This document shows positions 52,963 to 63,758 of a stretch of DNA of 64,000 nt, in pieces. Position 1 is the stretch's first letter, and each line of letters begins with the position of its first letter. The translations under genes and the position numbers were made by a program. A model generated the notes under the pieces. It had not been told where the DNA came from. It searched no databases and was given only the letters and a program-made list of their open reading frames with translations. The stretch is from the NCBI RefSeq assembly GCF_964019385.1, contig NC_088645.1, positions 19,822,158-19,886,157 of the forward strand, read 5' to 3'. This DNA comes from Sycon ciliatum. Taxonomy: Eukaryota > Porifera > Calcarea > Leucosolenida > Sycettidae.

Positions 52963-55900
52963 TCATTTGAGCAGGTCTTGCCGTTCGGAGTCGTGCCGGT
53001 CGATCAGATTCCGACGCTTCTCCTCCCATTGTTGCATTCGAGTATCGCGCTCAAACTCCAGTTGCTTCATCTCACGGAATTGCTTCTGCAACAGTTCCTT
53101 GATTTTGGCCTGCACACAGACACACACCAAGAGAATACATTTGGAACGAAACAAGGCTTGCCAGGAGCAACTTCTAGCTGTTGTGGAGTGTGACTGGTGC
53201 AGTGCTCGTGCTGGTGTCTGCAAGCGTCGTCTGATCGCGTCTGGTCAAAAGAAAAATCTACCACTACTATTTGACGTACCTACTGAAGATGGCATCACCA
53301 AATTAAAATCTACCAAGAATACATTTGCAGATATTCCCTCACACATCCCCCCCCCCCCCCCCCCCCCCCGATACACACTCACCACACACACATGCACATA
53401 CACCCCCCCCCCCCCCCACACACACACGCATGAATGCACACACATACAACCAATAAGTCAAGTGCACATTGAAGACGACAAGTGCAGTAAGAAGAGAAGT
53501 GGTGAAAATAATCAGGTCTACTTACAGTTTTGTCTGGAGATTCTCCCAAGCTATCCAGGGTGATTGTAACACTACTGTTGGATCGATTCACCGTAGCCAG
53601 TGGAATAGATGGAGATGGGGAGTCTGTAGAAATGAACACGAGAGAGAGAGAGAGAGAGAGAGAGAGAGAGAGAGAGAGAGAGAGAGAGAGAGAGAGAGAG
53701 AGAGAGAGAGAGAGAGAAGAGAGAGAGAGTAAGTTACATTTATAAAGACAGGTAAGTCTAACAAATGAGGACTGAGACCTCTATAAGAGAGAGAGAGAGA
53801 GAGAGAGAGAGAGAGAGAGAGAGAGAGAGAGAGAGAGAGAGAGAGAGAGAAGAGAGAGAGAGAGAGAGAAAGAGAGATAGAGAGGAGAGAAAAGTATTCT
53901 TCCATTCTCCTCCAAAAAAAGCAGTGAGCGTCAAAGACAATGACACCATCAACATCACCACCACCAGTACCTCAACTAGTATGTACGACTGCAGCTGAAT
54001 GCCGCCAGCAGCAGTGGCGGTGGCAGCAAAGCAGCAGCAACAGCAGCAGGAATAGCAGTAGCACAAGGATACAAAACAGGACGTGTGTTTACTCCTTACC
54101 GTCTCCATCCAACTGGTCATACTTCATTCGCTTGGCGAGGAGAGCTGCCTTCCTCTTTGGTCTCCAGTAGAGGAAGTGAAATGCCAGGCCCAGGCTTAGC
54201 ACAATGCCAACGGTAACGTAGCTCCAGATCACAGCGTCCTCCCAGTCTTCCTTGAACACACTGGTGATGGATTGGGAGGTGGCCTCTTTCTTGCTGATAT
54301 GACGTTGCTGCACGGAGCCAAACAAAGAACAGACGCAGAGACACACACGGACATTGCTTGCACTGCAATAACACCCGGTATTACCATTCTAAGCAGGATA
54401 CTAGTGAGTGAAAACGTGCAACAACTAGCACAAAACTGACTCTTGATTATGTGATACTGACATTCAACGACCTGATGCTTAACTGTATCACGGATGCAAT
54501 GTGCAAACCAACAGCTTTCAAACTTGCAAGGTTTACAGTTATGAAATAACATTAGAAAGGGGAAGGTGAGCGCACCATAGACGAAAACAAGCTAAACATC
54601 ACAGCGAACTAAGAATGCTAGCTATGACAAGATGATGGCGAAGGACGAAGGACAACGGCACAGGACGGCCACGGGTCACTTCGAAAACGTCTTTCGTCTT
54701 CATCTTGTCACACCCCCCCCCCCCCCCCCCACACACACACACTAACACATACCAGGGCGCCGCACACGGTACGGTCAATACGGTATTGGCCGTACCACTA
54801 TTTGACCCAAGTACCCGGTGAATCAAAAAAATGCACTGATTCGGGCTCTAATTGTCCAAATTTTTCGGCTCAGCCACCTCCCCCCCCCCCACGAGTAAAT
54901 TGTACTTCAGATGGCTGACCGTACCACACTAAATTACCTTCCGACGCCCCTCCATACACACACACACACTTGTACTTGCTCACTGCCATGACTGATTACG
55001 AGAGCCTCCCCGGAAAGGGGAGAGAGATTCAAAAGGAATCTTGGAAAGCAATTGGCTATTGAAACGCCCAACGGACGACACCCCTGAAATCCCCAAAACT
55101 CTGGGTGGACTTGGACTTGGACTTGGACTTGGACACACACACACACACACACACACACACACACACACACACACACACACACACACACACACACACACAC
55201 ACACAGAAAGCTAACTAGCCACACTCACTTCAACAGCATTCGTCAGTTCCTGTACAGAGAGGTAGATGTCTCGCTCTTTGTTCTGAACAAGCAGCGTAGC
55301 ACAGTTCTCCACCACACCACTGGAACCATTCGGACTCATGAAGAACCCATACTGGACAGGATTGACGTAGATGTTTGCAACCTGAAGACTGTCGACAATA
55401 ACATGCTCCAGAACCTAAGCAGAACACACGGATACAGTGGAGATTGGATACAACGACCTTGCATATAACGCCAAATTGAGGTGAGCGACAAAACTCTGTT
55501 GCCCAAGCCGTTTAGCAAGTCCTGTCCTTTCCGCACATTTTAGATCGGGAAAACAACCGCGAAGTTAACGACAGATCGTTGTTAACCCGGAAGCTGAGCC
55601 ACTAATAAGATTTAATGCGGAATTAGATACACCTGGATGTCAAACTTTTAGTGAAGATAAAAAGGTGCTGTGTTATCTGGCTTGAAAAATAAAGTACAGT
55701 CATGCACCAAAAGCACAATGTGTCATACTTTAATGGCAAAGGTTAATACCCACAGTTCAAGACCACTGCTAGTCACTGAGGACAGGCACGAAGCTGCAAG
55801 AGTCGTCAGGACAAACATATTGTAAAGCAGCAAACTATCGCGGCGCGCAAATTTAGCGTTTTCATAAATTGGGCTGGTTCACGATGAGAAACTTTTGCGA

Positions 55901-63758: not shown

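Follow-up and report, generated by a model that had tools for sequence, protein, structure and literature searches.

A gene in the 64-kb window of the Sycon ciliatum genome analyzed here (C3:19822158-19886157) probably encodes a subunit of a tetrameric channel shaped like an ionotropic glutamate receptor (iGluR) and belonging to the bacterial K+-filter kind (Group 1 / GluR0). The initial annotation had proposed that a eukaryotic gene here combines the layout of an iGluR with the filter of a K+ channel, and our analysis supports this proposal: the spliced frame is intact and a paralogue with the same plan is present. In the passages of the literature that we consulted, K+ channels and glutamate receptors are linked through bacterial receptors and a single rotifer channel. 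Finding the K+ filter in another animal lineage, and in an animal that has no nerves, would make the age and the route of such receptors testable. If the reading is true, it would also supply a naturally occurring receptor whose effect is inhibition instead of excitation.

The gene occupies the minus strand from 63758 to 52963. The thirteen exons with agreeing phases described in the initial annotation were all recovered, limit for limit: they are joined by 12 GT-AG introns with phases in register and give a protein of 542 amino acids with one start and one stop. The spliced CDS has its only stop at the end when read in this frame and 23 and 19 stops in the two alternative frames, and of 2000 random sequences matched to it in length and composition none was stop-free. 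The spliced product reads, in order, signal peptide, M1, pore loop with TTVGFGD, M3, S2 lobe, M4 and tail.

Exon 1 (63681..63758) carries the start codon and an N terminus that, judged by eye, resembles a signal peptide (MDQVQALLIIVLAGSFGAES). The opening part of the extracellular S1 region lies in exon 2 (62449..62592), and the region continues through exon 3 (61688..61765); a 28-kb search showed that residues 39-103 share 30% identity with the paralogue (E 2.3e-5). Exon 4 (60709..60850), also S1 region, has LPLNLPPQ at the place of the TIT..R motif of the relatives (placed by hand), and exon 5 (60342..60469) contains the end of the S1 region and the M1 helix (hydrophobic windows within residues 169-190). 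The pore helix and the first half of the filter, WWAMVTMTTVG, are in exon 6 (59220..59314). Exon 7 (58322..58478) starts with the second half, FGDKVP, followed by the M3 helix with FTATVTTSFTT and the start of S2. Because intron 6 divides the filter between these two exons (the second opening with FGD), the whole motif is unreadable in any unspliced frame. The S2 lobe extends over exon 8 (57972..58035; 64 nt, as in the paralogue), exon 9 (57519..57622), with Asp319 at the position of the Asp that binds the amino group, and exon 10 (55229..55414). Exon 11 (54100..54307) encodes the M4 helix (residues 417-435) and the start of the cytoplasmic tail, which is Ser/Thr-rich in exon 12 (53526..53623) and charged in exon 13 (52963..53109), where the stop codon lies; a similar tail exon is found downstream of the paralogue (E 0.002, 28-kb search).

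Since the first membrane helix after the N terminus is at residue 169, directly before the pore, and there are only three hydrophobic helices overall, the protein has no voltage sensor. Six of its eight N-glycosylation sequons fall in the predicted ectodomain, three of them in the S1 region. Of the order S1-TM1-pore-TM2-S2-TM3-tail proposed at the outset, the membrane helices, the filter, S2 and the tail stand; exons 2-5 take their S1 label from position, and the sequence tests reported below lend it no support.

Some features of the introns and of the rest of the window are worth recording. Intron 9 contains a 200-N assembly gap (56301-56500), so its length in the assembly may differ from its true length; no exon of the model is affected. 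Beside the gap, an inverted repeat with arms of 35 nt (56501-56535 and 57283-57317), which are separated by 747 nt and match with 91% complementarity, resembles a short DNA transposon. Intron 6 holds a long (GA/CT)n tract at about 58756-59210 that starts about 10 nt past the splice donor inside the selectivity filter. Remains of non-LTR retrotransposons lie at 17293-18894 and 30310-31473, both on the minus strand (RVT_1 7.9e-31, Exo_endo_phos_2 9.5e-18), and frames resembling reverse transcriptase were seen by eye at 1229-1996, 5374-5961 and 29606-30403. On the plus strand, there is an open frame of 447 amino acids, free of stops and introns, with a protein kinase domain (7253-8596, 1.2e-21), a GIY-YIG domain frame (23791-24336, 1.4e-5) and a RING-finger frame (44193-44723, 2e-7). 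The window has a second 200-N assembly gap at 14923-15122, and Rfam gave no matches in the 64 kb at gathering scores.

We searched the sponge's own genome (538 Mb, 313 contigs) with the spliced protein as query and obtained 20 matches, comprising the window gene, a second gene and three weak matches (E 0.33 to 6.5), one of which lies in an ordinary iGluR (L001). The second gene is on the plus strand at C3:22.381-22.391 Mb, 2.5 Mb from the window gene. Nine of its exons were assembled (C3:22380773-22391998), with the filter TSVGFGD, and a tail exon is at C3:22396839-22396952; the search did not locate exon 1 of this gene. Identity between the two proteins is 38%. Five of the eight internal introns of the paralogue match the window gene in column and phase, the filter intron among them, two more lie at most one column from window-gene introns, and exons 7 and 8 measure 157 and 64 nt in both genes. 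A reverse search of the genome with the paralogue as query gave 13 matches, all within these two genes. The same plan, the split filter and the five identical intron places argue that the window gene is not a chance chain of exons, and we rejected that explanation on the strength of the paralogue. Bacterial contamination was likewise rejected, given the 46.7-Mb contig and the twelve introns.

The same genome contains at least eight Lig_chan matches, of which five are in tandem on C4, another is also on C4 and two are on C1. The tandem group (L002-L006, C4:19.746-19.785 Mb) consists of five long single-frame iGluR genes. The best PDB match of one of them, L002, is plant GLR3.4 (1.3e-32), against 2e-21 for animal GluD1, and such likeness to plant GLRs is reported for sponge lambda receptors in the text available from PMC12226733. 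According to the same passages, lambda receptors were found in Calcarea and Homoscleromorpha and not in three demosponges, and parts of PMC7385117 describe iGluRs as apparently lost in demosponges and present in calcareous and homoscleromorph sponges. The iGluR content of the genome therefore points to a calcareous or homoscleromorph sponge as the probable host.

Pfam assigned the window protein to Ion_trans_2 (7.3e-13) and Ion_trans (1.5e-9) and, at 32.0 bits where the cut-off is 30.8, to Lig_chan (1.3e-7); it assigned the paralogue to Ion_trans_2, with a sub-threshold Lig_chan. Neither spliced protein matched SBP_bac_3 or Lig_chan-Glu_bd at E up to 1, so that of the domain models put forward in the initial annotation Ion_trans_2 and Lig_chan were found and SBP_bac_3 was not. 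In a PDB search, the best 60 of 401 matches were all K+ channels over the pore. In a GTDB scan, the best among the 80 relatives kept of 413 was L040, with 43% identity over residues 152-268 (E 3e-23); the runner-up among the same 80 had an E of 5e-11. L040 is a glutamate receptor with a K+ filter (TVGFGD) from a Gemmatales MAG, a planctomycete, and matches SBP_bac_3 (5.6e-21, around the pore), Lig_chan and Ion_trans_2 in Pfam. We read 43 of the 80 kept loci, namely L040 and 42 K+ channels, for which the pore, not Pfam, was the basis of classification. Among viral contigs, 59 pattern matches included no relative.

Bacterial receptors were sampled by phylum, each sample counting its centre genome, and L040 served for sampling. 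Receptors occur in 22 of 199 genomes of Planctomycetota (E up to 1e-10), 26 of 146 in the phylum of Anabaena and 4 of 149 in that of an Acidobacteria MAG (both E up to 1e-15), and 18 of 249 in that of Dyella (E up to 1e-25). In Planctomycetota and the phylum of Anabaena, both K+-filter and filterless receptors occur (L040 and L120-L184). We kept 58 bacterial sequences, of which 34 have a K+ filter (33 by pattern, plus L168 with GVGYGD, added by grouping); GFG occurs only in L040 and GYG in the other 33. Nine of the 29 planctomycete loci are outside the 58-row set, since L120 repeats L040, L142 and L148 gave duplicates, and L136, L140, L141 and L145-L147 are partial or weak.

Aligned with hhalign, the window gene and its paralogue matched six bacterial receptors over residues 154-376 at 99.2% (E 5.5e-20 in one comparison). 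The membrane part of the window protein scored 116.7 bits against the 34 bacterial K+-filter receptors, 92.0 against the 24 bacterial receptors without K+ filter, 87.9 against the 42 K+ channels and 30.0 against six iGluRs of its own genome (six of the eight loci were used in pore models and trees). As a control, we scored sampled sequences in leave-one-out fashion. All 12 K+-filter receptors reached 110-148 bits with their own model and 57-76 with the K+-channel model, and all 12 K+ channels reached 111-146 with their own model and 57-78 with the receptor model. The preference of the window gene for K+-filter receptors is 29 bits, while all 12 control K+ channels favor the K+-channel model by at least 38, and its K+-channel score of 87.9 exceeds that of every one of the 12 control receptors. 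The 116.7 against 87.9 bits and the controls together indicate that the window gene sides with the receptors. In addition, its M3 sequence FTATVTTSFTT follows the FTA..xT pattern seen in many bacterial receptors, and S2 follows in register. On these grounds the description of the pore as Kv-type given in the initial annotation is not supported, although the one-clade tests on the pore alone, reported below, left a grouping with K+ channels unrejected.

In a tree of the region from M1 to S2 (64 rows, excluding the two long rows L144 and L179), the window gene and its paralogue form a pair (100/100) whose neighbors are 23 bacterial rows (96/77), 21 carrying a K+ filter, with the sponge's own iGluRs outside; the SH-aLRT of 77 for this bacterial placement is just below the trust mark of 80. 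In one pore-only tree, the K+ channels form a branch that excludes the pair (95). One-clade tests on a pore-only tree without L144, L179 and L041 rejected no grouping of the pair, be it with K+ channels (p-AU 0.968), with own iGluRs (0.874) or with bacterial receptors (0.96). Because the one-clade tests beat the free search for all three groupings and rejected none, the pore-only trees were set aside.

The two lobes of the putative binding domain differ in what their sequences reveal. S2 alone matched a profile of 28 bacterial rows (still including the duplicate L142) with hhalign at 96.2% (E 2.8e-9 in one comparison; none of 60 column shuffles scored as high), and a global profile test gave z 4.15, with none of 300 as high. 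A PDB search with the S2 profile alone returned 12 matches at E up to 10, none of them a receptor or a solute-binding protein. The profile comparisons support homology between this S2 lobe and that of bacterial K+-filter receptors. For S1, hhalign against the bacterial rows gave 0.2%, with 27 of 60 shuffles as high, and the region scored 18.3 against the S2 profile versus 11.0 against the S1 profile; the global profile test gave z 1.07 (47 of 300 as high), and a search for the motif was equalled by 722 and 738 of 2000 shuffles. The region has a length, a position after the signal peptide and ahead of M1, sequons and a likeness to the paralogue that fit an S1 lobe, and do nothing more than fit.

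In bacterial receptors, an S1 Arg and an S2 Asp are described as totally conserved in the passages of Ger et al. (PMC2950845) available to us. In our 58 bacterial rows the Arg column is R in all 58 and the Asp column D in 55. Asp319 of the window protein aligns with the S2 Asp that binds the amino group of the ligand. The S1 Arg that binds the carboxylate in the bacterial relatives is missing: residues 69-157 contain no arginine at all, which holds regardless of alignment. In the paralogue, TPQR can be aligned by hand with TADR of L040; because MAFFT places it otherwise, we treat it as a lead to the ligand Arg only. The missing arginine raises the question of what such a receptor senses.

The window gene is likely to work like a receptor of the GluR0 family. 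If GluR0 and AvGluR1 are taken as guides, its N terminus and S1/S2 clamshell would face outward and the filter would lie near the cytoplasmic side. Closure of the clamshell would then pull the M3 bundle open, and the exit of K+ would hyperpolarize the cell. Because the S1 Arg is missing here, whereas the paralogue retains a candidate for it (TPQR, by hand), we think it most likely that the subunit either forms a heteromer in which the paralogue binds the ligand or responds to a ligand that is not a plain alpha-amino acid.

As to origin, the pore and S2 comparisons suggest that a K+-filter receptor of the bacterial type is the most likely ancestor of the family, more so than a Kv pore that was recently joined to a binding domain. 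In a fuller account, which we put forward tentatively, sponges (at least this lineage) would have taken up a bacterial K+-filter receptor long ago and added M4 and a tail. This would have given rise to a family of K+ channels with two genes, one of which encodes a subunit that has lost the amino-acid-binding Arg, so that a nerveless animal would have an inhibitory K+-conducting receptor gated by another ligand or via its partner.

A different history, to which we give some limited credence, is that of an ancient survivor among eukaryotes. Here a K+-filter receptor older than the animals would have been passed down vertically and lost in most lineages, with AvGluR1 as its cousin. The odds that we give to this history and to the main reading of the gene as a channel subunit of the bacterial K+-filter kind are not exclusive, as the survivor would differ in origin and not in how it works. 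The twelve introns, the two copies with common introns and the M4 helix, as in eukaryotic iGluRs, speak for it, and AvGluR1 is such a receptor in another animal according to parts of PMC11479355. Against it, the nearest relatives found are bacterial. This is weak evidence, because the search covered bacteria and the window's own genome, no other eukaryotic genomes and no AvGluR1 pore.

The window gene could also be a decaying or non-channel member of its family that is expressed and neither binds a ligand nor conducts, serving as a modulatory subunit or for nothing. The lost S1 arginine and the strong divergence of S1 would agree with this. We consider it improbable, in view of the intact frame, splice sites and filter, the conserved Asp319, and the filter and gene structure that are kept in a paralogue of only 38% identity.

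A fresh fusion in this lineage of a Kv-like pore with an unrelated extracellular domain, one of the two origins offered in the initial annotation, would account for the K+ channels at the top of the PDB matches (the best 60 of 401), for the higher score of Ion_trans_2 than of Lig_chan, for the absence of detectable S1 relatives and for the pore-only one-clade test in which K+ channels remained an acceptable grouping for the pair (p-AU 0.968), but it is very unlikely given a pore that favors the bacterial K+-filter receptors over K+ channels by 29 bits, the M3 pattern, S2 homology in register directly after M3, three hydrophobic helices without a voltage sensor and the branch of K+ channels that leaves out the pair (95).

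Among known systems, the bacterial Group 1 receptors (Ger et al. 2010, PMC2950845), with GluR0 of Synechocystis, are the nearest to the pore of the window gene among the models tried. They share with it an S2-type lobe after M3, the K+ filter, the M3 pattern and the S2 Asp. The window protein differs in its M4 and cytoplasmic tail, whereas the group has two membrane helices and no M4, and in the absence of the S1 Arg, the presence of introns and an S1 that is unrecognizable. Compared with the bacterial filter-bearing rows, its GFG is that of L040 (one of 34), whereas the rest have GYG. Because the S1 arginine is missing and M4 is present, we did not file the gene as a glutamate receptor of the GluR0 family.

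The other animal example is AvGluR1 of the bdelloid rotifer Adineta vaga. Both are animal receptors with a K+-type filter and M4, the layout of AvGluR1 being taken from passages in reviews; it is described as having the membrane layout of other eukaryotic iGluRs with a K+-type filter (PMC11479355). AvGluR1 is reported to be activated by amino acids, whereas the window subunit is without the S1 Arg, and the likeness, drawn from descriptions, is one of layout and filter. Parts of PMC11479355 and PMC12226733 describe AvGluR1 as K+-selective; in the text available from PMC3483616, it carries the filter motif and is yet permeable to Na+, so a K+ filter alone is no proof of selectivity. With the lambda and AKDF classes of sponge iGluRs, as outlined in portions of PMC6307864 and PMC12226733, the window protein shares the general layout of lobes and helices. 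Unlike them, it has no amino-terminal domain, only about 50 residues preceding the S1 region, it has a K+ filter, and its M3 reads FTATVTTSFTT in place of the SYTANLAA-type motif, a feature of AKDF, NMDA, epsilon and lambda receptors that the passages of PMC3483616 name for M3 of animal iGluRs. In the parts of the open-access literature covered, we found no sponge for which a K+-filter receptor had been described.

Kv channels and bacterial 2TM K+ channels share the filter and the pore helix (WWAMVTMTTVGFGD) with the window protein, which differs from them in having no voltage sensor and a receptor lobe after M3. Kv channels have a PVP-type S6, and the window protein has none. According to the text available from PMC12332018, a glutamate receptor engineered to carry a viral K+ pore functions in oocytes, which indicates that the architecture is viable. 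The kind of receptor to which we assign the window gene is already known, from the bacterial Group 1 receptors and from AvGluR1.
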